Assembly (NCBI RefSeq): GCF_017876755.1
Contig: NZ_JAGIOO010000001.1
Span: 7,921,786 to 7,985,785, forward strand
Length of the DNA: 64,000 nucleotides
DNA from: Crossiella equi
GTDB taxonomy: Bacteria; Actinomycetota; Actinomycetes; Mycobacteriales; Pseudonocardiaceae
Reading direction: 5' to 3'
Part shown: in pieces, positions 3,632-30,222 of the stretch
How the letters are laid out: each line of letters begins with the position of its first letter
Numbering within the stretch: position 1 is the stretch's first letter
Notes under the pieces: model-generated
Database searches by the model: none
What the model saw: the letters and a program-made list of their open reading frames with translations, nothing else
Told to the model about the DNA's origin: nothing
Made by a program: the position numbers and the translations under genes

Positions 3632-6600
3632 ATGAAGCGCCTTGGCGCGCTGTTGGACGCTGAATACTGTTCGCTCGTCGGTCGGGTTGCGGAATACCTG
3701 ATCGATGCCGGGCACGTCGTGTACGTGCGCGGGGATCGGGCCGCTTGGGCCGGGGCGAATCCTCGGTTGTCCGCTGCTGATCTCGCGCAGGTCGAGGTCG
3801 GGGTTGAGCCCGCCGATGGGGTGGACTGCCGGATTCGGCTCGGGGGTGAGCCGGTCGGTCTCGGGGCTGAGCGGGATGTCCAGCTGCGTGTCGTGGAGGT
3901 GGAGGGGAGCCGCTTCGCCCGGTGTGAGCTGGGGGGACGGGTCGTCGCACAACGTTCCTGCGGGCAGTCCGCGGCTGAGGCCGAGGATGCCGTCGTCGAG
4001 GCGTGCATCGATGCGCTCATCGATCTGTCGCGCGGGGAGCCCGTGGTCGCCGAGTGCGCGCCCGGGGTTGATGTGCTCCAGGAGTTCCTCGACTGCCAGC
4101 GGCAGGCCGCCCTGTTGCGCGAACGGTACCGGCGGCTCGGGGCGCCGTTCCTGGTGTCCGACCTCGTGGAAAGTCAAGGGGATGCGCGTAGTTTCAGTTG
4201 TGAGTTGAACGAGCTGGCTGCGGGCTTCGAATTCCGGGAAATGCACCTGGAATGGCTTTCTGTTTGGCTGCTGTTCTTGCTCAATGGGCGCAAACCGGGC
4301 GTCTACGGTTACGATCTCGCGGGGGCGCGCGGGGGTGTGCGCAAGTACCTGCCTGTGTCGGCGGAAATGACGGCAAGTGAGCTTGTCGGCCAAACGAGTG
4401 ATGCGGTCTACGGGGTCAGCGGCAACCGCTTCTACGATTTCCGTGCCACCTGTGGGAACCACCCCGGCAGCGGGCTCACCGTCGGGTACGGGCGGCCAGC
4501 GGCGCCCGGAGTGGTGCGTGTGGAGTACCGCGACGGGAAACTCCACTGCTACGACAGCACCGGGTCTCCGTTCTTCGAGTTCCTGCCCGACTTCCTGGAC
4601 GAGTTCTTCGCCCGGCTCGGTGGGTTCGCGGCCGGGGAGCTCCCCCTTGGCGCGCTCACCGGGCTGCCCGACCGCGTTCGCGAGGCCTTCCCCAGCGGGC
4701 CCGCGCCCACGCCGTTCCCGGCCGATCTGCCCATCCACCACGCCATCGCCCAGGCCGCCCGGCGCACCCCCGACGCGCCCGCGCTGCTCTGCGGCGACAC
4801 CCGGCTCAGCCACCGCCAGCTGGACGAGGCCGCCAACCGGCTGGCCCACCTCGTCCGCGCCACGCACGCCCCCGCCGTCGGCGACCGCATCGCGCTCTAC
4901 CTCGACCGCACCGAGCACCTCCTCATCGCCGTGCTGGCCACCCTCAAGCTCGGCTGCGCCTATGTCCCGGTCGACCTCGACTCCCCGCCCGAGCGCACCG
5001 GCCTCATCCTCGACGCCAGCCGCCCCGCGCTCGTGCTCACCGACGAGCACGCCCGCCCCCGCCTGGACACCGGGCTGCCGGTGCTGGTCGTGGACGGCGT
5101 GGACACCTCGGCGCAGCCCGCCACCGACCCCGGCACCGAGGTCACCGGCGCCGATCTGGCCTACGTCATCTACACCTCCGGTACCACCGGTGTGCCCAAG
5201 GGCGTCGCGGTCGAGCACCGCAACTTCCTCAACATCGCCACCGACATCCGCGGCTGCCTGGACTTCCGCGCCACCGACCGCATGCTCGCGGTCACCACGA
5301 TCGCCTTCGACATCTCCACCCTCGAGGTCTTCCTGCCGCTGATGTGCGGCGGCGCGGTGGTCATGGCCCGCCGCGACGACCTCCTCGAGGTCGACCGCCT
5401 GCTCGACCTCGTCGCGCGCCACGGCGTCACCGTCATGCAGGCCACCCCGTCGCTGTGGCACCTGGTCACCCGCCGCCTGGACGGCCGCACCCTGCCGGTG
5501 CGCGCCCTCTGCGGCGGCGAGGCACTGCCCGCCGCGCTGGCCGAACAGCTGACCGGGGCCGTGCGGGAGTGCTGGAACGTCTACGGCCCCACCGAGACCG
5601 CGGTCTGGTCCACCCGCACGAAGATCACCGCGCCGGTCGGCCGCGTCACCATCGGCCGCCCGCTGGCCAACACCCGCTGCCACGTCCTGGACGAGCGGCG
5701 CGACCCGCTGCCGCCCGGCATCCCCGGTGAGCTCCACATCGGCGGCGCGGGTGTCGCACGCGGCTACTTCGGCGACCCCGAGCTGACCGACCGCCGCTTC
5801 GTCCCGGACCCGTTCGTCCCCGGGCAACGCCTCTACCGCACCGGCGACCTCGCCCGCGTGCTGGCCAACGGCGAGCTGGAGTTCCTGGGCCGCAACGACT
5901 TCCAGGTCAAGCTGCGCGGCCACCGCATCGAGCTCGGCGAGATCGAGAGCACCCTGGCCGGGCACGACGGCGTCGAGGCCGCGCTCGTCGTGGTCGGGGG
6001 CGGCAACACCGCCGACGGCGACGACGGCCGCTACCTGGCCGCCTACTACCTCGCGCCGGCGCCCGTCGACGAGACCGGGCTCCGCGACTTCCTGGCCGAC
6101 CGGCTCTCGGAGTACATGACGCCGACGGTGTTCATCCACCTGACCGCGTTCCCGCTCAACGCCAACGGCAAGATCGACCGCGCCGCCCTGCCTGACCCGG
6201 GCGAGCACCTGGTCTCCGGCCGGGTGCCCCCGGCCACCGAGATGGAGGCCCGGCTGCACGCGCTGTGGGTGGACCTGCTGGGGCACGAGGACATCGGCGT
6301 CACCGACGACTTCTTCCGCTTCGGTGGCAACAGCATCCTCGGCATCCGCCTGGTCAACCGCATCAACAGCGAGCTGGGCACCGACCTCAAGATCCGCGAC
6401 CTGTTCCGCGAGAAGACCGTGCGCGCGCTGGCCGGACCGGTCGCCGCGGGCCTGGGCACCTTCGCCTTCCGGGACTTCGTGATCGAGGAGGGCGATCGGG
6501 ACGCCCTGCACGAGCCGTTCCCGCTGACCAACGTGCAGCAGGCCTACTACCTGGGCCGGTTCAACAACTTCGAGCTCAGCGACGTCTCCACGCACGTCTA

Positions 6601-9600
6601 CACCGAGTTCCGCTACCGCCACCTCGACCCGGCCCGCGCCGAACGCGCCTTCAACCGGGTGCTGCGCCGCCACCACGCGCTGCGCACGGTCTTCGCCGAG
6701 GACGGCCAGCGCTTCCTGCCCGAGGTCCCCGACTACCGGATCCCGGTGCACGAGCTGTGCGAGGAATCCGAGCTGCTGGCCCTGCGCGAGCAGTACTCGC
6801 ACAAGCGCTACGACCCCGAGACCTACCCGCTGTTCGACCTGGTGGTCAGCCGCCTGGACGGCGTGTGGCGCCTGCACGTCAGCTTCGACGCGATCATCGT
6901 GGACATGTCCAGCTTCGGCATCCTCTTCCAGGAGTGGGCGGGCTACTACCGCGAGCCCGAGCTGGCCCTGCCCGAACCGGCCATCAGCTACCGCGACTAC
7001 GTGCTGCGCTACGAGCGCATCCGCGACAGCGCGCTGTTCGACGCCGCCGAGGACTACTGGCGGGCCAAGGCCGAGGACTACCGCATCGAGCTGACCCTGC
7101 CGATGCGCGCCCGGCCGTCCTCAGTGGACACACCCCGGTTCCGGCGCCTCAGCCGGACCGTGCCGCGCCCGGTGTGGCAGGCGCTGTCCGCGCGCTGCAA
7201 CCGCTACGGCATCAGCCCGACCGCGCTGATCCTGGAGCTGTACGGCCGGGTGCTCGCGCACTACAGCGGCCAGGACCAGCTGTGCGTCAACCTGACGCTG
7301 TTCAACCGCCTGCCGCTGCACGCCGACGTCAACGGTGTCATCGGCGACTTCACCGTGCTCGGCCTGTTCGACTACCGCACGCGGACCGAGCTGGGTATCG
7401 CGGCCAAGCTGCGCGCGGTGCACGACGAGCTGCTGCGTGACATCGACCACAACCTCTACGACGGCATCGACTTCCAGCGCTGGCTCAAGCTCAGCAACGG
7501 CCTGCCGCCCAACAAGATCGTGGCCCCGGTCGTGCTCACCTCCACGCTCGGCTCCGGCGACTCGGCGAGCCTGTTCGAGCTGCCGCTGGACGAGCACTAC
7601 GACGGCATGGACTACTCGATCTCCCAGACCTCGCAGGTGTGGCTGGACAACAAGGCCTACGAGACCGCGCAGGGCCTGGTCGCGGAGTGGGACTACGTCG
7701 AGCAGCTCTTCGCCGACGAGGTCATCCAGGCCATGCACGACGCCTACTGCTGGCTGATCGAACGCGTGGCCGAGCTGGAGTGGGAGGCCGACGACTACCC
7801 GCGCCTGCCGCTGCCCGCCGCCGACCGCGCGGTCATCGAGGCGGCCAACTCGGCCCGCCGCCCGGTCAGCGAGCACACGCTGTTCTCCCTCTACGAGGAG
7901 CGCCTGGCCGAGTTCGCGGACGGCACCGCCGTCATCGACGGCTCCGGCGAGTACCGCTACGACCGGCTGCACCGCGACAGCACCCGCCTGGCGGGCGCGC
8001 TGGCACGGCAGGAGGTCGTCGGTGTGCTGGCGGAGAAGGGCTACCCGCAGGTGGTGGCCACGCTCGGTGTGATGAAGTCCGGCTCGGCCTACGTGCCGAT
8101 GAACGTGGAGTGGCCCAACGGCCGCATCGGCGAGGTGCTGGCCCAGGCGGGCGCGGACACGCTGCTGGTCTCCCGCGCCCAGCTCGGGCGCACGACCGGC
8201 GAGCTGGGCGCCCGGATCCTGGTGGTCGAGGACCTGGTCGAGCAGGCCGCCGAGGCCGAGCTGCCCGAGGTGCACCCGGACGACGTGGCCTACGTGATCT
8301 TCACCTCCGGCTCGACCGGCAAGCCCAAGGGCGTCACGATCTCCCACCGCGGCGCGGTCAACACGCTGCTCGCGGTCAACGACGAGTTCGCGGTCACCGC
8401 GGCCGACCGCGTGCTGGCGCTGTCCGAGCTGAGCTTCGACCTGTCGGTCTACGACCTGTTCGGCGTGCTGGCCGCGGGCGGCACGGTCGTCTTCCCGAAC
8501 CAGGCCGAGACGCGGAACCCGGCGCACTGGGCCGAGCTGGTCCAGCGGCACGGCGTGACCCTGTGGAACAGCGTGCCGCAGCTGGCGGGCCTGCTCGCCG
8601 ACGAGGGCAGCGCCGAGCAGCTGGCGAGCCTGCGCGCGGTGCTGATGAGCGGCGACTGGATCCCGACCGGCCTGCCGGACAAGCTGCGCGCGCTCAACCC
8701 GGACCTGACCGTGATGAGCCTGGGCGGTGCGACCGAGGGCTCCATCTGGTCCATCTGGTACCCGGTCGGCGTGGTCGACCCGGACTGGACGAGCATTCCC
8801 TACGGCTTCGCCATGCCCAACCAGCGGATGTACGTGCTGGACGCCCGCGGCGAGCACTGCCCGGTCGGCGTCACCGGCCACATCCACATCGGCGGCGACG
8901 GCGTGGCCCTGGGCTACTGGCGTGACGAGGAGCAGACCGCCAAGCGCTACTTCACCCACCCGGAGCTGGGCCGCCTCTACCACACCGGAGACCTCGGCCG
9001 CTGGAACGCCCAGGGCCACATCGAGTTCCTCGGCCGCGACGACTTCCAGGTCAAGCTGAACGGCTACCGCGTGGAGCTGGAGGAGATCTCGGCCAAGATC
9101 GCCCGCCTGCCGGGCGTGGACAGCGCGGTGGTCACCGTGCAGAAGGGCGAGGACCAGGACCACCTGGTCGGCTACCTCGTCCCGGAGCACGTCCCAGCCA
9201 GGTCCACTGTGGACAAGGCCGACTTCCTGCTGGCCCAGCACGGCCTGCTGACCGAGGTCACCCCGCACCGGCAGCTGACCGAGGAGGCCGAGGAGTCGGT
9301 CTACACCCTGGCCAAGAGCTACCGCCGCTTCACCGGGGAGGAGGTGGACCTGGACGCGGTGCGCAAGCACTTCGCCGAGGCCACCACCCGTCAGGAGCAG
9401 CGCAGCGACGGCGGGGACTGGGCCGAGGTGCTCGGCCAGCTCGCCGCCGTCACCGTGCCCGGTCGCCTGACCCCGAAGTACCGGTACCCCTCGGCGGGCG
9501 GGGCCTACCCGCTGCGGGTGTTCGCCGGTCTCGCCGACGGCGGCCGGTACTACCACCACCCGCTCACCCACGAGCTGTGCACGCACCCGCTGGCCGAGCA

Positions 9601-10597: not shown

Positions 10598-13500
10598 GCA
10601 CCGCCGTGGAACTGCTGCACGACCTGCGGGCGGCCAAGGTCCTGGTGTGGGCCAAGGAGGGCGGCAAGCTCGGCTTCTCCGCCGACAAGACCCTGGGCTT
10701 CCCCGACGAGCTGCGCGAACGCGTCCGGACCGCTCGCGCGGAGCTGCTCGCGGTGCTCCAGCGCAACGGCGTGGACTCCGCCGAGCGCGCCGAGCGCACC
10801 ACCTTCCACCGGCTGCCGCTGGCCGAGACCGGCGAGCTGCGCTCGATCCAGCGCGCCATGTACCTGCAGAGCCGCATGGACGAGCTCGCGGGCACCTACA
10901 CCATCCCGCTGTTCGTCGAGCTGCCCGGCGCGGACCCCCAGCGCGCCGGGCAGGCCCTGCGCGCGCTGCTGGACGGTGAACCGCTGCTGCGCATGGCCGT
11001 CCAGGAGGACCTCACCTACCGGATCCTGTCCACAGAGGATATTCCTGTGGAAACCCGGCAGGTCAGCGGCGTGGAGCTGGACGCCCTGCGCGAGGAACGC
11101 GCCCGCACCGCCCTGCCCCTGGAGGGTGGGCGGCTGCTGCTGCCCGAGGTGCTGGTCACCGAGGACGCCGTGGTGGTCGGCCTGACCCACCACCACCTGC
11201 TCTCCGACGCGCCATCGATGTATGTGCTCGGCGAACGCCTGGCCGGGCTGTACGCGGGCACCGCCACCCCCGAGCAGCCGTCCTATGTGGACTACGTGGC
11301 GCACCAGGAGGTGGAGCTGCGCGCCGAGCACTACACCCAGGCCCGCGAACGCCTCACCGCGAAGCTGGCCGCCGCCAACCGCCCGCGGCTGGGGCGGATG
11401 CGGCCGGGGGACAACCGCGCGGTCACCCGCGAGGACCGCCTGGGCCTGGCCGAGCTGGAGGCGCTGCGAGGTCTCGCCCGCGAGCACCGGGTCAGCCTGT
11501 ACTCGGTGCTGCTCACCGGCCTGTACAGCGTGCTCAGCACGTTCGCGGGCGGCGAGACCGGGTTCGTGGTGGCCGCGACCGTCGGCAACCGGCCGGTGGA
11601 GTTCGAGTCCTCGGTCGGCCCGTTCATCACCACGCTGCCGGTCATCCCCGACTACGAGCCCGGCGCCGACTTCGCCACCAACGTGCGGCGGGTGCATGAG
11701 GAGGTCGTCGACCTCAACCAGCACCACCAGCTCAACCTGGACGTGCTCGCCGAGGGCCTGCCCGGCGGAGCCGCCGACTTGCTCGAACTGGTGAAGGTGC
11801 TGTTCACCTTCCACAACTTCCGCGAGGCACCCGACCAGGGCGGGGTACCGCACCGGGTGCTGCCCTACGCCGACATCGCGGACAAGTTCGGCCTCACCGT
11901 GATCGCCAAGCCGGAGGCCGACGGCCTGCTGCTCACCACCACGCACGCCGTGGCGCGGTTCGAGCCCGGCTTCGTGGACGCGGTCACCGACGCCTGGCTG
12001 GCGCTGCTGCGCGCCGTGCCGGCGCACCACGGCCCGCTGGCCACCCTGTCGCTGCTGGACGGGCCCACCCGGGAGCTGATCACCCGCGAGAACGCCACCG
12101 AGGCCGACCTCGGCGACGACGTGACCGCGGTGGAGCTGTTCCACCGCCAGGCCGACCGCACCCCGGACAACCTGGCCGTGGTCTTCCGCGAGCACCGCCT
12201 GACCTACCGCGAGCTGGACGAGCGCGCGAACCGCCTGGCGCACGAGCTGATCGCGCGCGGCGTGCGCCCCGGCAGCCTGGTGTGCCTGCTCCTGGAGCGC
12301 GGCCAGCACCTGTCCGTGGCGGTCCTGGCCGTGCTCAAGGCCGGTGGCGCCTACGTGCCGGTCGACCCGGGCCAGCCCGAGGACCGCGTCCGGTTCATCC
12401 TCGCCGACACCGCGACCCCGGTGCTGCTCACCGACTCGACCCGGGCCAGCGGTTACCACAACGCCGTGGTCGTCGACACCGACCCCGACCAGCCCAGCAC
12501 TCGGCCTGAGGTGGCGCTGACCAGCGCGGACCTCGCCTACGCGATCTACACCTCCGGTACCACCGGCCGCCCCAAGGGCGTGCTCATCGAGCACCGCGGC
12601 CTGGTCAACCGGGTGCGCTGGATGCAGCGGGCCTACCCGATCACCGAGGCCGACCGGGTCGTGCAGAAGACGCCGTACGTCTTCGACGTCTCGGTGTGGG
12701 AGCTGGTGTGGGCGCACTGGTACGGCGCGGCCATCGTCTTCGCCGAGCCCGAGGGCCACAAGGACCCCGAGTACCTGGCCGGGCTGATCCGGCGCGAGCA
12801 GGTCACCGTCATCCACTTCGTGCCCTCGATGCTGGGCGCCTTCCTGGAGGCCCTGCGCGAGCCCGAGGCCCTGCGCAGCCTGCGGTTGCTGTTCGCCAGC
12901 GGTGAGGAGCTCAAGCTCGAGCACGTGCGGGCGGTGCACGACCGCCTGCCCTGGGTGGCGCCGCACAACCTGTACGGGCCCACCGAGGCCTCCATCGACG
13001 TGCTCGCCTTCGACTGCACGGACCGTGCCCTCGACCGGGTGCTGATCGGGCGGCCGATCGCGAACACCCGCGCGCACGTGCTCAACGACCAGCTCCAGGA
13101 GCTGCCGGTCTACGCGGTCGGCGAGCTGTTCCTGGGCGGCGTCGGCCTGGCCCGGGGGTACCTGAACCGGCCGGAGCTGACCGAGGAGCGGTTCGTCCAG
13201 GCGGGGGAGCGGCTGTACCGCACCGGCGACCTGGTGCGCCGCCTGCCTGACGGCAGCCTGGACTACCTGGGCCGCAACGACTTCCAGGTCAAGATCCGCG
13301 GTTACCGGATCGAGCTGGGCGAGGTCGAGTCGGCCCTGACCCGCCTGCCCGGCATCCGCCAGGCCGTGGTCGTGGTCTGGGGCCAGAACCTGGCCGGGTA
13401 CTACGTCGGCAGCGCGGACCCGGCGCGGCTGCGCGCCGAGCTGAACGCGGTGCTGCCCGAGTACATGGTGCCCGCCGCGCTGGTGGAGCTCACCGAGGTG

Positions 13501-22500: not shown

Positions 22501-25500
22501 GTGATCGGCATGGCCTGCCGCTTCCCGGACGCCGACACCGTCGAGGAGTACTGGCACAACCTCCTGGCGGGCAAGCGGTCCGCCGTGCGGCACAGCCGCG
22601 AGGAGCTGCTGGCCGCGGGCGTGCCCGAGCGGCTGCTGGACCGGCCGTCGTACGTGCCGGTGCAGGTCCGCATGCGGGACGTCGGCGCCTTCGACGCGGC
22701 GTTCTTCGGCTTCTCCCGCCGGGACGCCGAGCTGATGGACCCGCAGCAGCGCGTGTTCCTGGAAACCGCCTGGCACGCCCTGGAGGACGCCTTCCACGAC
22801 CCGGTCTCGGCCGACGCGGTCGGCGTGTTCGCGGGCATGGGCCAGAACGCCTACTTCGACGACCACGTCCGCCCGGCCCTGGCCGGTGCCGACCCGGCCG
22901 AGGAGTACCAGGCGATGATCCACAGCCAGGCGAACTTCCTGGCCACCAAGGTCGCCTACCGGCTCGACCTCACCGGCCCCGCGATCACCGTGCAGACCGC
23001 GTGCTCCTCCTCGCTGGTCGCGGTGCACCAGGCCGTTGGCGCGCTGCTGGCCGGGGACTGCGACGTGGCACTGGCCGGTGGGGTGTCCATCGGCCAGCTC
23101 GGTGTGCGGGGCTACCTGCACCAGCAGGGCATGGTCTTCTCCGCCGACGGCACCTGCCGGGCCTTCGACGCCTCGGCCACCGGCACGATCGAGGGCCAGG
23201 GCGCGGGCATCGTGGTGCTCAAGCCCCTGGACCGCGCCCTCGCCGACGGCGACCAGGTCCGCGCGGTGATCAAGGCCTCGGCGGTCAACAACGACGGCCA
23301 CGACAAGGTCGGCTACACCGCGCCGAGCGCCCGCCAGCAGGCCGCCGTCATCGCCGCCGCGCACCGCCGGGCGGGCATCACCGCCGACACCGTCGGCTAC
23401 GTGGAGACCCACGGCACCGGCACCCCACTCGGCGACCCGATCGAGTTCGAGGGCCTGCGCACGGCCTTCGGCCCCGGCGCCAACGCGGTGCTGGGCGCGG
23501 TGAAGGCCAACATCGGGCACCTGGACGTCGCCTCCGGGGTGGCCGGGCTGATCAAGGCCGTGCTGTGCCTGGAGCACCGCACCCTGGTGCCCACACCCGG
23601 TTTCGAGAAGCCCAACCCGGCGATCGACCTGGCGGGCAACGGCTTCCGGGTCGGTACCGAGGTCGAGCCCTGGGACAGCGCCGGGGTCCGGCGGGCCGGG
23701 GTGAGCTCGTTCGGGATCGGCGGCACCAACGCGCACGTGGTGCTGGAGGAGGCCCCGGCGGTGCCGCGGACCCCCGGCAACGGGCGCGACCGGCAGCTGG
23801 TGGTGGTCTCCGGGCGCACGCCCGAGGCCGCGCGGCGGCAGGCCGTCCGCCTGGCCGCCCACCTCCCGGCGGAGCTGTCGCGACTGTCCTACACGAGCCT
23901 GGCCGCGCGCCGACCGTTCGAGCACGGTCTCGTCGCCACCGGCACCACCCCCGCCGAGCTCGCCGAGGCCCTGCGCGTCCCGGCCGAACCCGTGCCGTGG
24001 CGCGAGCACCGCCCGGTCGTCTTCCTCTTCCCGGGCCAGGGCTCGCAGTACCAGGGCATGGGCCGCGCGCTCTACGACAGCGAACCGCTGTTCCGGTCCA
24101 CAGTGGACGAATGCGCGGCGCACCTGGCCGGGCTGGGCGACGGCGTGGCCGACCTGCTCGGCTGGACCGCCCGCGTCGGCGAGACCGAGTACACCCAGCC
24201 CGCGCTGTTCGTGCTGGAGTACGCCCTGGCCCGCTGGTTCACCGCACACGGGGTGCGACCGGCCGCGATGATCGGGCACAGCGTCGGCGAGTACGTGGCC
24301 GCGTGCCTGGCCGGGGTGTTCACGCTGCCCGAGGCCCTGCGCCTGGTGCACACCCGGGGACGGCTGCTCGCCCGCACCGCGCCCGGCGCCATGCTCGCCG
24401 TGCCGCTGCCGGAGTCCGAGGAGCTGCTCGCCGGGTACGCGCTGGACGTGGCCGCGGTCAACGACCACGGCAGCTGCGTGGTGGCCGGGACCCCCGAGGA
24501 GGTCACCCGGTTCGCCGAGGACCTCGCCGCCCGCGGCGTGCGGGCCCGGCGGGTACCGGTCAGCCGGGCCTTCCACTCCCGGCTGCTGGAGCCGGTGCTG
24601 GCCGAGTTCGAGCGGGCCGTGGCCTCGGTCGAGCCGCGCAAGCCCGAGCTGCCGTTCATCTCCGGTCTCACCGGGGACTGGGCCGACCCGTGGGAGGTCA
24701 CCCAGCCCCGCTACTGGGTCGACCAGCTGCGCGGCAAGGTCGCCTTCGCCGACGGCCTGGGCACCCTGCTCACCGCCGAGCCCACCCGGCACGCCGCCTA
24801 CGCCGAGATCGGCCCCGGCCGGGTGCTCGCGCGCCTGGTGCGCACGCACCGCCACCGCGAGGACAACCCGGTCACCGCCACCCAGCCCCGATCGGCCGAG
24901 GGCGACGCGCGGGCCGAGGCGCTGACCGCGCTGGGCGTGCTGCACGTGGCCGGTGCCCCGGTGGACGCCGCGGTGCTCACCGGGCACGGCCCGGCCGACC
25001 GGGTCCGCCTGCCCGGCTACGCCTTCGACCGCACCGAGCACTGGATCGGCCGCACCGCCCGCGAGGAGCACGCCGCGCCCGAACCGGACGGCGTGGCCAC
25101 GGTGGAGGCCGTGGTCGAGGAGGCCTGGCGCGCGGTCCTGGGCGTGGCCCCGGCCAGCCCGCACGAGGACTTCTTCGCCCAGGGCGGCGACTCGCTGGCC
25201 GCGGTGCAGCTCGTGGCCAGGGTGGAACGCCGCCTGGGCGTCCGCCTGGAGCTGCTCGAGCTGCCCCGACCGACCCCGGCCGCGCTGTGCGCGCAGCTGC
25301 GGGCGCGCCTGGCCGGGCTGACCGGCGTGGGCCCGCGCTCGGTGGTGCGCATCCGCCAGGGCGAGGACGGCGTGGTCCCGCTGGTGCTGGTGCACCCGGT
25401 GGGCGGCGACGTGTACTTCTACCGCGAGCTGGCCCAGACCCTGCCGGAGTCGCAGCCGGTGTACGTGATCCGCTCACCCATGCTGGACGGCCTGGCCGAG

Positions 25501-26181
25501 TTCGACACGATCGAGGACATGGCGGGCCACTACCTGGACCTGCTGGCCGAGCTGGACGTGCGTCCCCCGTACCGCCTGGGCGGCTCCTCCTTCGGCGGCC
25601 TGGTGGCCTACGAGATGGCCCGCGAGGTCGCGGCCCGCCACGGCCTCCGCCCGGAGGTCGTCCTGGTCGACACCCCGTCCCCGGACAACCTCCCGGCGGA
25701 CATGGCGGAACCGGAGATCCTGGACTACCTCTCGCGCTACGGCCTGTCCGGCCTGGCCTTCAGCCAGACCGAGCTGGAGTCCCTGCCCACCACCGAAGCC
25801 AAGATCCGCTACCTGGCCGACCGCGCCCGGGGCACGGTTTTCGAGGAGATGCTGGCCGAGGACTTCCTGCCCACCTACCTGCACGTCTGGCGTCGCCACA
25901 GCGCGGCCATGCACCGCTACCGCGCCCAGCCCTACGACGGCGACCTGGTGTTCTTCTCCCACCAGGAGACCATCCCGGAGTTCCCGACGGGCCAGGACCG
26001 GTTCTGGCGGCGGCTGGCGCAGGGCGGCTGGCGGCACGTCCCCGTGCCCGGCAACCACCTGAGCATGAACGCCATGCCGCACGTCGCGCACATCGGCGCG
26101 GCACTGGGGGAGAAGCGGCTGGCGGGCCCGACCCCGCCCAGCTCCCCCGACCCGGCCCCCACCTCCGAGGAGTCCCGATGA
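10594..26181 (+). CDS. NRPS-PKS 2: dock-C-A(Ser)-PCP-E-Cy-A(Cys)-PCP-E-C-A(Gly)-PCP-KS-AT-ACP-TE
   Basis: A 5195-aa hybrid synthetase that finishes the chain. By residue: TubC-like docking domain (3-55); C (85-490, HHLLSDAPS with Ala for the usual Gly); A, code DVWHFSLIDK, serine (509-985); PCP (LGMDSI); E (1085-1489, HHLVVDAVSW, EGHGRD); Cy (1505-1936, DLITLDVRS = DxxxxDxxS); A, code DLYNMSLIWK, cysteine (1949-2443); PCP; E (2539-2926, HHLAVDVLSW); C (2949-3369, HHAILDGWS); A, code DILQVGVIWK, glycine-like (3402-3866); PCP (LGGNSV); KS (3966-4393, active Cys in TACSSS); AT (4472-4769, GHSVGEYVAA with RAFHS, malonyl type); ACP (4836-4906, QGGDSL); TE (4926-5163, GSSFGG). No KR, DH or ER is present, so a beta-keto thioester reaches the TE. 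The GTG start overlaps the previous stop (GTGA) behind AGGAGGGGG. The gene overlaps the next one by 4 nt. Confidence 0.94.
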   Translation: MSTAVELLHDLRAAKVLVWAKEGGKLGFSADKTLGFPDELRERVRTARAELLAVLQRNGVDSAERAERTTFHRLPLAETGELRSIQRAMYLQSRMDELAGTYTIPLFVELPGADPQRAGQALRALLDGEPLLRMAVQEDLTYRILSTEDIPVETRQVSGVELDALREERARTALPLEGGRLLLPEVLVTEDAVVVGLTHHHLLSDAPSMYVLGERLAGLYAGTATPEQPSYVDYVAHQEVELRAEHYTQARERLTAKLAAANRPRLGRMRPGDNRAVTREDRLGLAELEALRGLAREHRVSLYSVLLTGLYSVLSTFAGGETGFVVAATVGNRPVEFESSVGPFITTLPVIPDYEPGADFATNVRRVHEEVVDLNQHHQLNLDVLAEGLPGGAADLLELVKVLFTFHNFREAPDQGGVPHRVLPYADIADKFGLTVIAKPEADGLLLTTTHAVARFEPGFVDAVTDAWLALLRAVPAHHGPLATLSLLDGPTRELITRENATEADLGDDVTAVELFHRQADRTPDNLAVVFREHRLTYRELDERANRLAHELIARGVRPGSLVCLLLERGQHLSVAVLAVLKAGGAYVPVDPGQPEDRVRFILADTATPVLLTDSTRASGYHNAVVVDTDPDQPSTRPEVALTSADLAYAIYTSGTTGRPKGVLIEHRGLVNRVRWMQRAYPITEADRVVQKTPYVFDVSVWELVWAHWYGAAIVFAEPEGHKDPEYLAGLIRREQVTVIHFVPSMLGAFLEALREPEALRSLRLLFASGEELKLEHVRAVHDRLPWVAPHNLYGPTEASIDVLAFDCTDRALDRVLIGRPIANTRAHVLNDQLQELPVYAVGELFLGGVGLARGYLNRPELTEERFVQAGERLYRTGDLVRRLPDGSLDYLGRNDFQVKIRGYRIELGEVESALTRLPGIRQAVVVVWGQNLAGYYVGSADPARLRAELNAVLPEYMVPAALVELTEVPLTVNGKLDRRALPEPVAAAATGVVEPRTGREAEVRAVCADALGRDGFGVTDDLTRLGMDSIVAIRLAARLRQRFGQAVAVREVFAARTVERLTALLASTESTVDVVAEQGRLSGAVPLLPIQSWFFDQEPPRREHWNQAFLIRVPELDLARLGTALGALFERHDALRLRFRTENDRIVQYYDEHAVPAGLAVLDVRTVSGEALQRSLTTWQRGFDLADGPLHAAGYLHGYADGSARVFLALHHLVVDAVSWRVLADDLHALYEGRELGAKGTSYREWAEAVAGYGCPDPEYWQRQLDGARDLGATDEPCSAELLLDAEATELLLGAANTAFRTTPEELLLTATGLALRELTGQAAHTVVLEGHGRDGLDLDVSGTVGWFTTLRPFRLDTGGAAPDLVGAVLAVKEALRAAPPAIGFGARHHELPDLWFNYLGQPGATDGDWQVLTDPAGQTMPGGMPGALSIFALVTGGRLRVTLDSRLGRERTARLADALDTALRQVLTGCAAHEPGGYTPSDLREVRGEADLPEPVLGLDPHGWFELTDIQQAYLLGRYGNYEIGNVANHVYAEHVYPHLDTARLERAINDLVAEADVLRTVFSLDRLRQRVLPAHEVPAYELAVRTYQRYSELLLEDVRDRLSHEVHDAERFPLFTFEVSVFPDRAVLHLGMDLITLDVRSRLTLLRRLHDLYTGTASPPLPQATFKDHQDHAALLRGSEWYRRDRAYWQAKLPTMPPRPGLPLRNSPDTVVHPRFGEHTIEVAPEVWQRFKARTSALGVSASAALLGLFGSILAHAAGTTELPITVTLANRVPLVPDVDRVLGNFTSTVLHHFTDQPRDAEALLRHTHDRLWEDIAHSLYPGVRVQRDLVRLHELDATKALSPIVFTGAVGEATREFARLPFLAEDEHLDRRRWGAQTSQAWIDLQAVESGDGFSSKWLYVEQLFHEDDIAHLNGLFVRLIGQLADGGTDLPRADYLRAADRELIEAANAFDREPSEDTLVSLIDRHDPASPAVIDAAGAHSYGDLVTDSAALAGALLGTEGSLVAVLADKGYHQVLATTAVLRAGLAYLPLHVDWPLERVAGILTESGTGTVLLTRAHAQRAEVRELGARFRLLVIEDHLDQAPVRLPEVRADDLAYVIFTSGSTGKPKGVTISHRGAMNTIHAVNERFQVTAADRVLALSELSFDLSVYDLFGLLAVGGTIVCPDQARTKDPAHWADLVQRHGVTLWNSVPQLAGLLAEEAAHLGSLRVVMMSGDWIPTTLPARLREVCPAAVVMSLGGATEGSIWSIWYEIGEVDPDWPSIPYGCAMPNQRVYVLTAAGEHCPVGVPGEIHIGGAGVALGYWRDPGLTAARYFTHPELGRLYRTGDLGCWREPGHIEFLGRTDFQVKLNGYRVELGEVEAALAACDGVAQSVAAVVRDRLVGYYVAERPLPEAALTAHLARRLPEYMVPEALVHLTALPLSPNGKLDRAALPEPDAPTTEGHLAPRDEGERRLRDLWAEVLGLPADRLGVRDDLLKLGVDSIVAIRVVGRLRRQLGLAVGVRDVFAHRTVEQFHQRFGHTTATEVRAEQGVLTGPLPTLPVQDWLLGQDLPEPAHWNQSFLIRVPALDPDRLADCVRQLVDHHDALRLRVADGLRYGTGSPGLRTADVSTVDDLDALLTEWQNGFDLADGPLCAFGYLHGYPDGSARVFVAVHHLAVDVLSWQLLTEDLHTLYQGGSLGEKSTSYRQWAEHVRTRFAEAVLPARHPEPLAPAGPARHLRLDFDAELTERLHRCQRVYGTGVDEFLLTALGLALAEVTGRSSWDVALEGHGRDEVSADLDLTRTVGWFTTLHPAHLALSADPVASLKTVKDSVRAAREHALAYGVAVGYTHPMPPVCLNYLGWLEDSGEPWSVTAEPAGTAVHPANELPYTLNLAGAVRGDRLELLVASKLSEEDTERLALALRGQLATLVALVGAETRTHLTASDIAHVLPQERLDELQATRELADVFAATSLQQGFIAHALRQGQADDAYRVQAVWDYHAAIDPDLLRQAWAHAQAQHACLRTGFDWAHDHVQVVAREARLDWRFTDLSGHPEPRREFSALVLADRETPYDLAQPGLFRLRLVKFGDRAYTCLLNTHHAILDGWSSPLLLDTVHTAYLRLLDGREPAAATEDYAACQRYLAAHAHEHTGFWRAHVADASGPADLGGLLRPEARGTDLGNHRRVERQNRRARLLPAHAATALRTAAAAEGVTPAAVFQYAWHRQLSVYGGTGTTVVGTVLSGRELPVDGIERAVGLFLSTVPLLVRHTAEATLAAEVQALQRDLHEASRRGTVDLAALEPAGRRLFDSLFIHENYPESANPEHTRELAPEFRWRHQKRDYPLVLTVAERGEAVELSVDYAEELFEASTVDRLLAGVETVVSAFTARPATPVTEVVLAGAADLAAQRAWNDTGVALPAEPVIHRAFARHAAATPDAPALEHTGEVLTYAELDALTNRLARALDVAPGERVLLLLDRGLHTVAGPLAVLKAGAAYVPLAPDYPKERGARVVAGSGARVVLTQARHRARVQEQWPGLRVVTVEEPAESAAPLGVEVSGDGPAYLMYTSGSTGEPKGVEITHHAFTSTVEAVRQRHFPGSGPLSTYSVTNYVFDIFGLEYGLTLLTGGRITVGDPWVTGLDCSPFDFVQMTPSLLELKLPDLRGTGGVRLLVGGEKLERRLLESALPRFAEVVNVYGPTETTIWSTTATYRGELAGPVTIGRALPNEGAHVLGTGLAPLPIGAVGELCLSGQALATGYAGDPGLTRARFVDTPLGRVYRTGDLARWLPEGELEFLGRVDNQVKLRGHRIELGEIDSALLACGARQAVTLVVDERLVGYHVGAEISAEQLVELLPEHMRPEVLIRLDALPLTHSGKLDRRALPVPAAEPAGFAAPSTDVEAVLAAAWCAVLGADRVGRHDRFFDLGGNSVSLTRVHGRLPADLRARVSVTDLFAHPTIAGLAAHLDRPAAAAPVTVRERSTVDRDIAVIGMACRFPDADTVEEYWHNLLAGKRSAVRHSREELLAAGVPERLLDRPSYVPVQVRMRDVGAFDAAFFGFSRRDAELMDPQQRVFLETAWHALEDAFHDPVSADAVGVFAGMGQNAYFDDHVRPALAGADPAEEYQAMIHSQANFLATKVAYRLDLTGPAITVQTACSSSLVAVHQAVGALLAGDCDVALAGGVSIGQLGVRGYLHQQGMVFSADGTCRAFDASATGTIEGQGAGIVVLKPLDRALADGDQVRAVIKASAVNNDGHDKVGYTAPSARQQAAVIAAAHRRAGITADTVGYVETHGTGTPLGDPIEFEGLRTAFGPGANAVLGAVKANIGHLDVASGVAGLIKAVLCLEHRTLVPTPGFEKPNPAIDLAGNGFRVGTEVEPWDSAGVRRAGVSSFGIGGTNAHVVLEEAPAVPRTPGNGRDRQLVVVSGRTPEAARRQAVRLAAHLPAELSRLSYTSLAARRPFEHGLVATGTTPAELAEALRVPAEPVPWREHRPVVFLFPGQGSQYQGMGRALYDSEPLFRSTVDECAAHLAGLGDGVADLLGWTARVGETEYTQPALFVLEYALARWFTAHGVRPAAMIGHSVGEYVAACLAGVFTLPEALRLVHTRGRLLARTAPGAMLAVPLPESEELLAGYALDVAAVNDHGSCVVAGTPEEVTRFAEDLAARGVRARRVPVSRAFHSRLLEPVLAEFERAVASVEPRKPELPFISGLTGDWADPWEVTQPRYWVDQLRGKVAFADGLGTLLTAEPTRHAAYAEIGPGRVLARLVRTHRHREDNPVTATQPRSAEGDARAEALTALGVLHVAGAPVDAAVLTGHGPADRVRLPGYAFDRTEHWIGRTAREEHAAPEPDGVATVEAVVEEAWRAVLGVAPASPHEDFFAQGGDSLAAVQLVARVERRLGVRLELLELPRPTPAALCAQLRARLAGLTGVGPRSVVRIRQGEDGVVPLVLVHPVGGDVYFYRELAQTLPESQPVYVIRSPMLDGLAEFDTIEDMAGHYLDLLAELDVRPPYRLGGSSFGGLVAYEMAREVAARHGLRPEVVLVDTPSPDNLPADMAEPEILDYLSRYGLSGLAFSQTELESLPTTEAKIRYLADRARGTVFEEMLAEDFLPTYLHVWRRHSAAMHRYRAQPYDGDLVFFSHQETIPEFPTGQDRFWRRLAQGGWRHVPVPGNHLSMNAMPHVAHIGAALGEKRLAGPTPPSSPDPAPTSEESR

Positions 26182-27047
26182 CCAGAACGGCACCCGGTCC
26201 CGCCCGGTGCGCGGTCCCCGGTGGCCGCGTGTGGTTCGAGGTCGCCAACCCCGACGCCCCCGGCACCCCGGTGGTGGTCGTGCACGGCGGCCCCGGCACC
26301 CCGCACGACTACCTCCGCCCCCTCGCCGACCAGCTGCCCGGCCACCCGGTCCTGTTCTACGACCAGCTCGGCTGCGGCCGCTCCGACCGCCCGGCCGACG
26401 TGCGCTGGGAGCTGCCGCGCTTCGTCGAGGAGCTCGACGCCGTGGTCACCGAGGCGGGGTTCGGTGAGTACCACCTGCTCGGGCACTCCTTCGGCAGCAT
26501 GGTCGCCTGCGACGCCGCCCTGCGCGGGGACGACCGGCTGCGCGGCCTGGTGCTGATGTCCCCGGTGCTGTCCACGCGCCACCACGAGCGGGAGATGCAG
26601 CGCCTGCTGCTGACCTTCCCGCAGCGCGTGGCCCGCGGCATCGCCGCCGCCCTGCGCGGGCGGCCCAGCCCGGAGACGCCCGGGGCGATGCTGCACTTCG
26701 CCGAGCGCCACATGTGCCGCCTGGACCCCTGGCCCGAGGTGCTCACCGAGGTGCGGGACAGCAACCCCGAGGTCCGGGACGCGTTGTGGGGACCGACTGA
26801 ATTCCAGATCAGCGGGAGCCTGCGCGGCTATCACCGGATCGACCAACTCGGCCAGCTCGACATTCCCGTTCTGCTACTCTGCGGGGCGAATGATTTCACC
26901 TCCCCGAGAATGTGCTCGGCATTCGCGGACGCGTTACGGAACGCCCGTTTGTGCGTTATCGAAAATGCCTCGCACATGGCACACCTCGAGGATCCGGCAG
27001 AGTGCGGCGTCCGCTTGCGCGAGTTCTTCGGCGCGCTCGCACCGTAG
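26178..27047 (+). CDS. Alpha/beta hydrolase, proline iminopeptidase-like, in the biosynthetic operon
   Basis: A 289-aa S33-type alpha/beta hydrolase. The oxyanion-hole motif HGGPGTPHDY, the YDQLGCGRSD segment, nucleophile Ser in GHSFGSM, acid Asp in GANDFTSP and the final His in NASHMAHLE are all present, so it should be active. It has no signal peptide. ATG overlaps the NRPS-PKS stop (ATGA), giving tight translational coupling. In an althiomycin-type pathway it could hydrolyse stalled intermediates, help close the pyrrolinone ring, or trim the product; I cannot choose among these. The last 180 bp (about 26860-27040) have unusually low third-position GC for this operon. Confidence 0.85.
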   Translation: MTRTAPGPARCAVPGGRVWFEVANPDAPGTPVVVVHGGPGTPHDYLRPLADQLPGHPVLFYDQLGCGRSDRPADVRWELPRFVEELDAVVTEAGFGEYHLLGHSFGSMVACDAALRGDDRLRGLVLMSPVLSTRHHEREMQRLLLTFPQRVARGIAAALRGRPSPETPGAMLHFAERHMCRLDPWPEVLTEVRDSNPEVRDALWGPTEFQISGSLRGYHRIDQLGQLDIPVLLLCGANDFTSPRMCSAFADALRNARLCVIENASHMAHLEDPAECGVRLREFFGALAP

Positions 27048-27056
27048 AGAGACGGA

Positions 27057-28286
27057 ATGATGGAGAACAGGTCCGAAGCCAAGGTGACACCCGGCAAGTT
27101 CTTGCCCGCGTTGCTGGTCATGGCGTTGGTCGGCACGATCATCGAGATCGACATGTCCGTGCCCAGCTTCCCCGACATCGCCCGTGAGCTGGGCGTTTCC
27201 GGTGCGGCGGTGCAGCTGACCATCACGCTGAACTTCCTCGGCTACTGCCTCGGCGCGCTGGCCTACGGCCCGCTCTCCGACCGGTACGGGCGGCGGAAGA
27301 TGATGCTCGGCGGCAATGTCGTCATGCTGCTCGGCGCACTCGGCTGCGCCGTGGCCACCAACATGGAGTTCCTGCTCGCCTCGCGGTTCGTGCAGGGCAT
27401 CGGCGCCAGCACCGCCGTCGTTCTCGTGTTCGTCATCATCGGCGACGTCTACGAGGGCATGGCCGCCATGAAGATGTACGGTGTGATGAATGCGGCGATG
27501 TCCGTGCTCATGACCGCGGCTCCGCCGGTCGGCGGATTTGTCAATCACGCGATCGGCTGGCGCGGCAACTATTTCGTGGTTTTCGCCATCACGGCGCTGT
27601 CGCTGCTGCTGATGTTCTTCTTCCTGCCCGAGACCCGCACCCGGGCGCTGAGCACCATCACCGTGCGCTCGGTGCTGGCCGACTACCGCAAGCTCGTGGG
27701 CAGCGGCGCGTTCGTGGCCGCCTCCCTGGTGCCCAGCCTGCTCTTCGCCGCCTACATGGTCTTCATCGCGGCCAGCTCGTTCATCTACACCGGCACCTTC
27801 GGCCTGACCACCACCGAGTTCGCGCTGAACCTGCTCATCATCGTGGCCTCCTTCGCCATCCCGAGCATGTTCGCCACCAAGCTCATCCCGGTGCTCGGCG
27901 GCCCGGCGGGCACCGTGCGCTGGAGCCTGGGCGCGGTCGTCGTGGGTGTGCTCGCCTTCCTCACCCTGGGCACCGGCGCGGCGGCGGTCACCGGCTCGGT
28001 CGCGGTGTTCTGCGTCGGCTTCGCCGTGGTCTACCCGGTCGTGTTCGGCCGGTCCATGTCCGTCTTCCCCGAGCTGGGCGGCGCGGCCTCCTCGGTCACC
28101 ATGAGCGCCCGCGCGCTGCTGGTGACCCTGCTGACCGCGATCTCCAGCGCCTTCTTCACCGGCGACCCGGTGGTGCCCGCCGCCGTCATGGCGGGTGCCG
28201 TGGTGGTCGTCGTGCTGCTCAGCGTGGTCAACGGCCGCGCCGAAAAGCGCGCGCAGGCCCGTCAGCCCGCGCCGGAAGCAGCCTGA
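27057..28286 (+). CDS. MFS drug exporter, Bcr/CflA-type (DHA1)
   Basis: A 409-aa major facilitator with about 12 membrane helices. It has the motif A equivalent GPLSDRYGRRKMM between helices 2 and 3, and the early acidic residues of the drug:H+ antiporter 1 group (TIIEIDMSVPSFPDIA in helix 1) typical of Bcr/CflA transporters. It starts 10 nt after the hydrolase stop; ATG at 27057 and 27060 are equivalent choices. Its place inside the biosynthetic operon makes it the likely product exporter and a self-protection factor. From memory, the Serratia althiomycin cluster also has an MFS protein linked to self-resistance. Confidence 0.92.
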   Translation: MMENRSEAKVTPGKFLPALLVMALVGTIIEIDMSVPSFPDIARELGVSGAAVQLTITLNFLGYCLGALAYGPLSDRYGRRKMMLGGNVVMLLGALGCAVATNMEFLLASRFVQGIGASTAVVLVFVIIGDVYEGMAAMKMYGVMNAAMSVLMTAAPPVGGFVNHAIGWRGNYFVVFAITALSLLLMFFFLPETRTRALSTITVRSVLADYRKLVGSGAFVAASLVPSLLFAAYMVFIAASSFIYTGTFGLTTTEFALNLLIIVASFAIPSMFATKLIPVLGGPAGTVRWSLGAVVVGVLAFLTLGTGAAAVTGSVAVFCVGFAVVYPVVFGRSMSVFPELGGAASSVTMSARALLVTLLTAISSAFFTGDPVVPAAVMAGAVVVVVLLSVVNGRAEKRAQARQPAPEAA

Positions 28287-28318: not shown

Positions 28319-29296
28319 ATGACCGCGACTACCAGTGAGGCAGCGCCCGACACGGCTCCGCTGCGCAGCCTCGGCCCGGACTACGTGGCGCGCTGGGAGG
28401 CGCGGGGCTCGGTGCGCACCCGGCCCCGCAAGACCATCGACTTCGGTCTGACGGGCCACTTCTTCCCCGCGGACCGGCAGCCGCTGCTGCTGGCCCCGGA
28501 GGTCGCCGGGCTGGACGGGGAGGTGCGCGAGCGCATCCTCATCCAGTCCTTCTTCAAGTACCTGCACGACATCGTGAACCTGGAGATCAAGGAGATCGTG
28601 TCGGCGTGCACCAAGGTGCTCGACGGCACGCTCCCCGTCCCGCTCTCCGACGAGCTCAAGCTCAACTGCTACTCGATCGTCATCGACGAGTACTACCACG
28701 TCTACATCGCCCAGGACCTCATCCTGCAGCTGCGCAAGCGGTACCCGGACCTGGGCCACTTCGACTTCCCGGTCTCGGACTCCATGCGCGCGGTCGCCGA
28801 GATCAAGGCGCGCCTGGACGCCCGCTACCACGACGTGTTCGAGGTGCTGGCCAACTGCATCTTCGAGACCACGCTCGTGCGCGAGCTGGTGGAGTTCTTC
28901 AACGCCGAGGACGTGCACCCGTCCATCCGGTACTACGTCAACGACCACATGAACGACGAGTCCCGGCACTACGCGTTCTTCCTCGACCTGATGAAGCACG
29001 TGTGGGCGGAGCTGCCCGAGGACTACCGCGAGGCCATCGGCTCGCGCCTGGGCGAGTTCGTCAAGCTCTACCTGACGGTGGAGTCGGAGAAGCAGTTCAA
29101 CGTGGCGCTGATGACCGAGGTGCTCGGCGGCGACGCCGCACGCGCCGAGGCGTCGGTGGCACGCCTGTACGAGGGTTTTGACGTCACCGCGGACCTGCCC
29201 ATCGCGCAGAACGTGCTGCGCGCGTTCGGCAAGGCCGGTCTTCTGGACCACGCCGCGGTGCGCTCGAGTTTCCGCAAGATCGGCTGGGAGGTCTGA
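28319..29296 (+). CDS. AurF-like diiron N-oxygenase (candidate oxime-forming enzyme)
   Basis: A 325-aa soluble protein of the p-aminobenzoate N-oxygenase (AurF) family. The two diiron ligand sets can be seen in a helical protein: Glu in NLEIKEIV, then ExxH in DEYYHVYIAQD; Glu in CIFETTLVREL, then ExxH in NDESRHYAFF. Family members oxidise amines through hydroxylamine to nitroso, oxime or nitro groups using a peroxo-diiron centre. Here the likely substrate is the amino group of the starter glycine, giving the aldoxime on the thiazole. It starts 32 nt after the MFS gene with AGAGAGG as ribosome site, and its stop overlaps the next start by 1 nt (TGATG). The substrate is inference; the fold and ligands are clear. 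Confidence 0.9.
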   Translation: MTATTSEAAPDTAPLRSLGPDYVARWEARGSVRTRPRKTIDFGLTGHFFPADRQPLLLAPEVAGLDGEVRERILIQSFFKYLHDIVNLEIKEIVSACTKVLDGTLPVPLSDELKLNCYSIVIDEYYHVYIAQDLILQLRKRYPDLGHFDFPVSDSMRAVAEIKARLDARYHDVFEVLANCIFETTLVRELVEFFNAEDVHPSIRYYVNDHMNDESRHYAFFLDLMKHVWAELPEDYREAIGSRLGEFVKLYLTVESEKQFNVALMTEVLGGDAARAEASVARLYEGFDVTADLPIAQNVLRAFGKAGLLDHAAVRSSFRKIGWEV

Positions 29297-30222
29297 TGAA
29301 CGCCGTCGTCTCACACCGCACCGGGTCCCGGGTGCCGGAGGGGGAGGCCACCGCCGCGCTGGTGGCCGGGATCGGGGCCCGCCTGCGCGAGAGCGACCGG
29401 CTGGTGCTGCCGCTGGAGGAGTCGCTGGAGCTGCTGGACCGGCTGCGCGAGTTCGAGCTCGGCCGGTTCCTGCTGCACAACCAGGGCCTCAACGGCTTCT
29501 GGACCGCCTACATCTTCCGCCACCCGCAGGGCGCGCCCGGCAGCTGCCCCACCGAGGACTGGCTGCTCAACCGCTCGCTGCTCTCCGGTGCCCGCGAACG
29601 CTTCCACCGCTTCAAGGCCACCATCGCCCGGCACGTCACCGACGGCGCGGTGCTCGCCTCCATCCCCTGCGGCCTGATGGACGACCTGCTGGAGCAGGAC
29701 TACTCCGGCGTGCGGGACGTGCGCGTCGTCGGCATGGACATCGACCCGGAGTCCCTGGCGCTGGCCAAGGAGAACGCCGAGTCGCGGGGCCTGGGCGCGC
29801 TGTGTGAGTTCGGTGAGCGCGACGCCTGGGACCTGGGCCGCACCGCCGAGTTCGACCTGCTGGTCAGCAACGGGCTCAACATGTACGAGTCCGACCCGGA
29901 CCGGCTGCGCCTGCTGTACCGCAACTTCGCCCAGGCGCTCAAGCCCGGCGGCAGCCTGCTGCTGAGCTTCCTCACCCCGCCGCCCCCGCCGCCGTGGGTC
30001 GACGAGAGCCGCGTCCAGGAGTGGGACAAGTACGGCATCGAGGTCGCCGACCTCCAGCGCGAGCTGGCCCTGTTCGGTGACATCGTGCAGGCCAAGTACC
30101 TCAACTTCACCCCGGAGGCCGAGGTGCGGCAGATGCTGGCCGAGGCCGGGCTGGTGATCGAGTCGGTCGACTACAGCGCCACCGGCGTGCTGCCGATCAT
30201 CACCGCGCGCAAGCCGGGCTGA
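29296..30222 (+). CDS. SAM-dependent methyltransferase (candidate pyrrolinone O-methyltransferase)
   Basis: A 308-aa class I SAM methyltransferase. An N-terminal helical region (1-110) precedes the Rossmann part. Motif I is atypical (VLASIPCGLMDDLL instead of the usual GxGxG), but the acidic loop VVGMDIDPESLALAKENA is classic, followed by the DLLVSNGLNMYE and LKPGGSLLLSF segments. It is the last gene of the operon, translationally coupled to the N-oxygenase through TGATG and followed by a strong terminator. No methyltransferase domain is present in the synthetases, so this enzyme is the natural candidate for O-methylation of the beta-keto/enol oxygen that gives the 4-methoxy-pyrrolinone. Confidence 0.9.
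   Translation: MNAVVSHRTGSRVPEGEATAALVAGIGARLRESDRLVLPLEESLELLDRLREFELGRFLLHNQGLNGFWTAYIFRHPQGAPGSCPTEDWLLNRSLLSGARERFHRFKATIARHVTDGAVLASIPCGLMDDLLEQDYSGVRDVRVVGMDIDPESLALAKENAESRGLGALCEFGERDAWDLGRTAEFDLLVSNGLNMYESDPDRLRLLYRNFAQALKPGGSLLLSFLTPPPPPPWVDESRVQEWDKYGIEVADLQRELALFGDIVQAKYLNFTPEAEVRQMLAEAGLVIESVDYSATGVLPIITARKPG

Follow-up and report, generated by a model that had tools for sequence, protein, structure and literature searches.

An althiomycin-type operon of Crossiella equi and its linked, putatively self-protective and leader-controlled ABC-F protein

Althiomycin was originally found in Streptomyces althioticus and interferes with peptidyl transferase (PMC9147431, from which we also take the drug site used below). 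It is made by the nonribosomal peptide synthetase-polyketide synthase (NRPS-PKS) lines alm of Myxococcus xanthus DK897 and alb of Serratia marcescens Db10; alb1-6 were compared with almA-F by Gerc et al. 2012, who describe Alb6 as unrelated to AlmF (PMC3445576). Among actinomycetes, althiomycin-type clusters have been published for Saccharopolyspora sp. NFXS83 (PMC10145562) and A. acidiphila B-2296 (PMC7893419). ABC-F proteins linked to biosynthetic gene clusters have been reported almost only with drugs of the peptidyl-transferase site (PMC8546547). A literature search, which did not extend to supplements, returned no paper joining althiomycin with ABC-F or ABCF. Here we analyse a stretch of 64,000 nucleotides (nt), the window, from the 9.44 Mb single-contig genome of Crossiella equi (NZ_JAGIOO010000001.1, positions 7,921,786 to 7,985,785), which carries an althiomycin-type operon at 3632-30222 and, convergent to it on the minus strand (30827..32425), a gene for an ABC-F ATPase of 532 residues. 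Since actinomycete althiomycin clusters are already published, the operon taken by itself extends a known group and is not new in kind; the linked ABC-F matters more. Taken as a whole, the locus is likely to combine an althiomycin line with a self-protective ABC-F controlled by a leader.

As the earlier note had read from the letters, the operon consists of six plus-strand genes with overlapping or very short junctions, and the ORF (open reading frame) coordinates gave, in order, a 4-nt overlap, a 4-nt overlap, a 9-nt gap, a 32-nt gap and a 1-nt overlap. The first gene (3632..10597) encodes an AlmA/Alb4-like NRPS of 2321 residues, composed of an N-terminal domain followed by A(Gly)-PCP-Cy-A(Cys)/Ox-PCP (A, adenylation; PCP, peptidyl carrier; Cy, heterocyclization; Ox, oxidase), as assigned from Pfam, identity to relatives and A codes; it is 56% identical to its counterpart in Saccharopolyspora NFXS83 and 43% identical, over the full length, to that of Serratia bockelmannii. 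Its ORF as listed opens at 3557, and the start was placed at 3632 because this fits the relatives aligned at their methionine; the relatives' rows were trimmed at that methionine, which in Myxococcus is the ORF's own start. The second gene (10594..26181) encodes an AlmB/Alb5-like NRPS-PKS of 5195 residues with a docking region, C-A(Ser)-PCP-E, Cy-A(Cys)-PCP-E, C-A(Gly)-PCP and KS-AT(malonyl)-ACP-TE (C, condensation; E, epimerization; KS, ketosynthase; AT, acyltransferase; ACP, acyl carrier; TE, thioesterase), called from Pfam/NCBIfam, motifs and identity (59% Saccharopolyspora, 57% S. althioticus in the C-terminal part, 50% M. xanthus, 44% Serratia). Pfam recovered the main domains of the order proposed earlier: in protein 1, A and PCP domains twice each and a condensation-type domain once; in protein 2, searched as three fragments, A domains three times, together with condensation-type domains, PCPs, KS, AT, ACP and TE. 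The E and Ox calls of that order were reached only through sub-cut-off matches plus motifs: the E domains score 39.2 and 23.5 bits on TIGR01720 (cut-off 74.2) and carry HHxxxD and EGHGRD motifs, and the Ox domain gives a weak SagB match only (E 1.1e-4). The labels C, Cy and E were assigned from motifs and position, the Cy domains carrying DxxxxD motifs.

Behind the megasynthases, Pfam and TIGR01250 bore out the claimed hydrolase, efflux protein, N-oxygenase and methyltransferase. The hydrolase (26178..27047, +) is of the proline-iminopeptidase family like AlmF (TIGR01250, 190.1 bits, cut-off 167.65) and 53% identical to that of M. xanthus. The major facilitator superfamily (MFS) efflux protein (27057..28286, +; MFS_1) is AlmE/Alb1-like, with 67% identity in S. 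althioticus, 54% in M. xanthus and 48% in Serratia, and its best family is Bcr/CflA, scored under that family's cut-off. The AurF-type diiron N-oxygenase, AlmD/Alb2-like and predicted to form the oxime (28319..29296, +; PF11583), shares 66%, 58% and 53% with the same three relatives and has ExxH motifs at residues 124 and 214. The last gene (29296..30222, +; Methyltransf_25/31) encodes an AlmC/Alb3-like S-adenosylmethionine methyltransferase, the putative O-methylating enzyme, which is 54-64% identical to its relatives and 47-51% identical to those of Legionella, Zooshikella and Glomeribacter.

The AT domain carries an AFHS motif, which we take to mark a malonyl-type domain. The codes of A domains 1 to 5, taken as nine positions from an alignment anchored at module 3 plus the A10 lysine, which was found in all five, are DILQLGVVWK, DLYNLSLIWK, DVWHFSLIDK, DLYNMSLIWK and DILQLGVIWK. 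Aligned in this way they confirmed the earlier by-eye reading of Gly, Cys, Ser, Cys and Gly plus malonate, six modules in all; for the step from code to residue we rely on the usual correspondence, together with the assignment made by the authors of PMC3445576 themselves. Codes 1, 2, 3 and 5 are identical to those of the Serratia relative, and code 4 is one residue off that of Serratia and one off that of Myxococcus.

Protein-by-protein comparison with the Myxococcus and Serratia clusters, which the earlier note had proposed, was run against M. xanthus AM003 and S. bockelmannii, relatives of but not identical to DK897 and Db10. Five of the six operon genes, homologues of AlmA, AlmB, AlmC, AlmD and AlmE, have counterparts in both (AurF 53-58%, methyltransferase 54-56%, MFS 48-54%, NRPS/PKS 42-54%). 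Counterparts of the hydrolase occur in actinomycetes, Myxococcus (53%) and Legionella, and no match was found in the Serratia, Zooshikella or Glomeribacter clusters. The window thus shares with alm and alb the two megaenzymes, the AurF oxygenase, the methyltransferase, the MFS pump and the module specificities, and with the Myxococcus alm cluster the AlmF-type hydrolase as well. Published Alb/Alm protein lengths (2376/2396, 5347/5428, 318/317, 303/302 and 393/446) are near the window's, but gene order differs, the window running A-B-hydrolase-MFS-AurF-methyltransferase where alb and alm put MFS, AurF and methyltransferase before A and B (PMC3445576). The order from B onward is common to S. althioticus JCM 4344, seen there from the C-terminal part of B. 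The closest counterpart is Saccharopolyspora sp. NFXS83 BGC7 (OOZ19_10375-10385), which has the same gene order (56-77% identity in the six genes), the convergent ABC-F (71%), the small neighbouring gene and the leader type described below; where the paper on that strain treats the cluster, only almAB and almF homologues are named (PMC10145562).

From gene-by-gene homology, the A codes and the AFHS motif, with gene order in further support of what the earlier note had claimed, we infer that the operon very probably makes althiomycin or a close analogue. It is quite unlikely that its product is not althiomycin but another oxime-thiazole peptide, an analogue with altered oxidation, methylation or release. 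Related enzymes of nitronate/oxime chemistry do give other products (PMC9967187), and the module 4 code departs by one residue from that of the Serratia relative; against this, genes and order match Saccharopolyspora and, as far as seen, S. althioticus, the five codes match those of Saccharopolyspora apart from the one module 4 residue, and no additional tailoring gene lies inside the operon. Although intact, the cluster might also be silent in this strain, or defective, as A. acidiphila with its predicted althiomycin cluster showed no activity (PMC7893419); with all six genes open from start to stop, we regard this as rather improbable.

The ABC-F, which the earlier note missed together with its leader, has two ABC_tran domains joined by a linker (ABC_tran_Xtn) and scores 381.5 bits on NF000355 (cut-off 380), and it lies beside a cluster whose inferred product is a drug of the peptidyl transferase centre. 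Between it and the operon, a gene for a small Cys-rich protein of 153 residues (30313..30774, minus strand), helix-turn-helix (HTH)-like as described by eye, lies 90 bases past the operon and is, like the ABC-F, convergent to it. It has no Pfam or NCBIfam match, and of all loci examined just two, Saccharopolyspora (44%) and Nocardiopsis (51%), had a homologue, in both at the corresponding position.

Scanning genome contigs with a two-sequence AurF alignment returned 25 loci, among them Saccharopolyspora NFXS83 (77%), S. althioticus JCM 4344 (66%), M. xanthus AM003 (58%), S. bockelmannii (53%), Nocardiopsis kunsanensis and a further three Streptomyces whose genes are nearly complete. Flanks were readable for 12 clusters, that of the window and those at 11 of these loci, the other 14 having too little flank or a different cluster. 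An ABC-F adjoins 11 of the 12: the window, Saccharopolyspora, Nocardiopsis (where the methyltransferase, HTH-like and ABC-F genes sit on a second contig), S. althioticus, S. nigrescens, S. endophytica, S. morookaense, M. xanthus, Legionella gratiana, Zooshikella and Glomeribacter. It is co-directional with the operon in Streptomyces, Legionella, Zooshikella (1.2 kb on) and Glomeribacter, and convergent in the other four.

These genes are extra copies. In 118 genomes of the class, this ABC-F subfamily (E up to 1e-150) is present once in 106, absent from 8 and present twice in 4, that is, in the window's genome (G000) and in 3 of the 117 others (G411, G478 and G491). The housekeeping ABC-F of the window genome lies apart from the cluster (C1:1729295). 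An extra copy was found in all six cluster-bearing actinomycete genomes searched, as against none of 12 other actinomycetes (11 without an AurF match and G766 with AurF fragments). M. xanthus AM003 likewise has two copies of the genus ABC-F, 75% alike, where 15 other Myxococcus genomes, whose cluster content was not looked at, have one each. It could be held that the linked protein is an ordinary translation factor that became a neighbour by chance: the subfamily is single-copy in most actinomycetes, NF000355 was passed by just 1.5 bits, and the window gene is convergent to the operon and outside it. The extra copies and the repeated linkage, in 11 of 12 clusters and drawn from several ABC-F lineages, weaken this idea, as does the loss of the conserved linker tip described below, and we give it only a small chance.

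A tree of ABC-F proteins built without the tip columns unites the copies of the window, Saccharopolyspora and Nocardiopsis in a clade (support 99/94) and nests the linked Streptomyces copies with Streptomyces-type housekeeping ones (100/99). A single clade for all seven linked actinomycete copies was rejected (p-AU 0.00018; 35/63 rows, tip removed), and the linked proteins of Legionella, Zooshikella and Glomeribacter are distant (30-34%). Since a single origin was rejected, the Streptomyces copies nest with housekeeping ones and the Myxococcus copy is of the genus type, there appear to have been at least three independent acquisitions of an ABC-F by the cluster, in the window lineage, in Streptomyces and in Myxococcus. 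In the AurF tree the seven actinomycete sequences are united in a single clade (100/99), and M. xanthus branches next to it (85/87).

The linked copies also differ at the linker tip, the part that in EttA extends toward the peptidyl transferase centre (PMC8782954). In the window this tip, residues 279-284 (31574..31591, minus strand), reads AGVKTA, where housekeeping copies mostly have AKATKA and YheS has RAKATKA at the aligned place. The pattern [KT]A[TS]K is kept in 52 of 52 actinomycete housekeeping ABC-Fs, selected by hand from the copies found, and Myxococcus housekeeping copies read AKATKA in 6/6; it is kept in none of the seven linked actinomycete copies, nor in the linked Myxococcus copy. 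By alignment the tip is altered in four linked lineages: AGVKTA or SNVKTA in the window clade, A-GTKA in Streptomyces, -RVTKA in Myxococcus and A-GVNA in Zooshikella. Changes in the conserved tip columns exceed those elsewhere in the window clade (p 1.5e-4) and in Streptomyces (p 8.7e-5 against all housekeeping copies, 0.0026 against Streptomyces-type ones); these p values are descriptive, because the stretch was picked after viewing the alignment. The tip change as a universal mark was rejected, as Legionella and Glomeribacter keep an ordinary tip. Its exclusiveness to althiomycin was rejected too: the extra ABC-Fs of G411, G478, G491 and G755 have no alm gene in the 15-16 kb searched around each, and ten ORFs near three of the four gave Pfam matches to potassium-channel-like, pyridine nucleotide reductase and uracil-DNA glycosylase proteins, seven having no match.

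Upstream of the window ABC-F, 83 nt before its start, lies a conserved leader ORF of seven codons, MSASRIY (32485..32508, minus strand), with MSNSRIY at the same place in Saccharopolyspora, MSESRIY in Nocardiopsis and MS[LT]PR[IV]S in the sister paralogues. The leader pattern occurs in 16 of 394 class genomes and 0 times in the reversed control, and 16/16 matches lie 82-87 nt upstream of an ABC-F of this type. Together with Saccharopolyspora and G755 this makes 18 leader-bearing ABC-Fs, and the tip is altered in all 18. The ORF RNA (32493-32502) forms the 5' arm of a helix whose 3' arm, by consensus columns (32433..32442, minus strand), covers the ribosome-binding site of the ABC-F; the window's own fold (z -4.95) shifts by one at the outer end relative to this consensus. 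With the near-duplicate G478 set aside, 17 leaders were aligned, and in the predicted fold of every one the ORF pairs with 3 or 4 bases of the GGAG site. In the consensus helix 93.5% of cells are paired, against 25-42% when it is slid, and 5 of its 9 pairs have changes in both partners, which 2/500 shuffles equalled, the related leaders not being independent sequences. A weak WblC/WhiB7-like promoter (32515..32553, minus strand) shows 3 mismatches to the published motif (PMC7157823), equalled by 3/360 shuffles; the motif stands 6-7 nt upstream of the leader ORF and has at most 2 mismatches in 13 of 18 cases and in 0/360 shuffles. From this arrangement it seems somewhat favoured that the leader responds to the drug.

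These features allow a comparison with producer ABC-Fs of the LmrC, Ard1 and TlrC/OleB type, which also sit beside clusters for ribosome-targeting drugs; lmrC also has an upstream leader ORF (PMC12421871). Unlike them, the window protein is close to the single-copy actinomycete housekeeping ABC-F, and its change lies at the tip of a linker that is not lengthened. LmrC gives only moderate resistance and is yet required for signalling (PMC8546547), and the main rival account is that the window ABC-F is chiefly a sensor timing antibiotic production, with little part in resistance. A leader and a small HTH-like neighbour would suit such a sensing unit, but the HTH-like gene is present in three clusters only and the tip changes point to the drug site; we hold this account to be unlikely, if less so than the chance neighbour. 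Self-protection is the leading reading because cluster-linked ABC-Fs go with drugs of this site and althiomycin hits peptidyl transferase, and on the sequence evidence it is reasonably likely that the linked ABC-F is a self-protection factor.

Several observations weigh against this reading. In Serratia the pump Alb1 alone confers resistance (PMC3445576), and the Serratia relative, in this differing from the window, has no ABC-F within 40 kb of its cluster. The window clade is sister (99/96) to tip-altered paralogues outside any althiomycin cluster, and G608 (L171) has a window-type leader, MSNSRIY, and the tip SNVKTA, yet no AurF match in the class sample. The linked Streptomyces ABC-Fs are without a leader ORF, and Streptomyces housekeeping ones (e.g. 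L061, L075, L077 and L135) have a different one, of MA..L...H type, 82-90 nt before the start; they may also be leader-controlled, and because of them the presence of a leader does not single out resistance factors. Taken by itself, the tip change in Myxococcus does not exceed background (p 0.24). The linker is of housekeeping length, not lengthened as in many resistance ABC-Fs, a trait that is common but not required and that OptrA, too, does without (PMC6723617). The linked Legionella (AKASKA) and Glomeribacter (GKASKS) proteins retain the ordinary tip. As read by motif, the L. gratiana line (L049-L050) has only four A domains found, and the module 3 code of the Glomeribacter line (L053-L054), DVWS..LMH, departs from Ser, two of its positions being probably misread. 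Because of these two features both lines probably make other products, and the unaltered tips may belong to lines that make something else, a pattern seen after the fact.

With self-protection as the reading that we prefer, the system would work as follows, the assembly steps being modelled on the Serratia and Myxococcus schemes. Glycine would be loaded and then N-oxidised to the oxime by the AurF enzyme; cysteine would be added, cyclised and oxidised to a thiazole, followed by D-serine, a cysteine-derived thiazoline and glycine. The PKS would add malonate, the methyltransferase would O-methylate, and the TE and/or the AlmF-type hydrolase would release the product and close the methoxypyrrolinone, for export by the MFS pump. 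As a second layer of self-resistance, the ABC-F would bind the producer's ribosomes and free the peptidyl transferase centre of drug. The helix between the leader ORF and the ribosome-binding site would hold its translation down until a drug-stalled ribosome on the leader, probably, opened it, and ribosome-protecting self-resistance would thus probably be drug-induced. In its widest form the proposal is that clusters in different phyla took up an ABC-F at least three times (which for Streptomyces and Myxococcus was the host's housekeeping gene, duplicated) and reshaped its tip into a drug-specific ribosome guard without a longer linker, the ribosome-binding site of the guard in the window's lineage being hidden by leader codons; to this we give an even chance.

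The cluster itself is sporadic in distribution: of the 397 genomes in the order sample, the window's own is the single one with a close AurF match (E up to 1e-60), and such a match was found in 2 of 394 class-sample and 1 of 5 genus genomes (E up to 1e-40). No empty site could be defined in congeners, the flanking chitosanase and OsmC-like genes being far apart (G750) or on different contigs (G751), or the second being a 49% match only (G752, G753); the pieces examined from G753 and G750 held no alm gene. Among the loci, a record titled Bartonella queenslandensis AUST/NH15 (L022) has MFS, AurF and half a methyltransferase gene, its AurF nearest Serratia in the tree, and may reflect contamination or transfer. 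In Streptomyces olivaceoviridis (L029) an MFS gene of alm type (66%) is accompanied by no more of AurF than fragments, and the locus may be a decayed cluster. In S. endophytica (L045-L046) the alignment of the A and B proteins to those of the window is broken into several pieces, which may be due to frame breaks or sequencing errors.

The N-terminal domain of the AlmA-like protein (3632..4720, +, end approximate) was overlooked in the earlier note. These first ~370 residues before A domain 1 have no Pfam family match and are conserved in all six relatives aligned. One of the seven members matched DUF1493 at E 0.084, and profile and Pfam searches with the domain found essentially the A-domain edge and at best the end of a condensation domain; an AlphaFold2 model reached pLDDT 73.5 and pTM 0.70. 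Elsewhere in the window, a nitronate monooxygenase-family gene (PF03060, 37498-38514) lies 7 kb past the cluster and could act on nitronates. Two very large genes (48827-52621 and 53477-56848) both encode a golvesin C-terminal domain, which one of them combines with a GDSL lipase domain and the other with a ricin-type lectin domain. Scanning the window for Rfam families and tRNAs gave no matches.

The operon contributes the complete sequence of an althiomycin line from an actinomycete. The linked ABC-F, if the reading offered here is true, would represent a repeated natural experiment in which a translation factor becomes a resistance factor through few tip residues. Extra, tip-altered copies of this ABC-F would then serve as a flag in genome mining, and the small leader ORF may report drugs of the peptidyl transferase centre.

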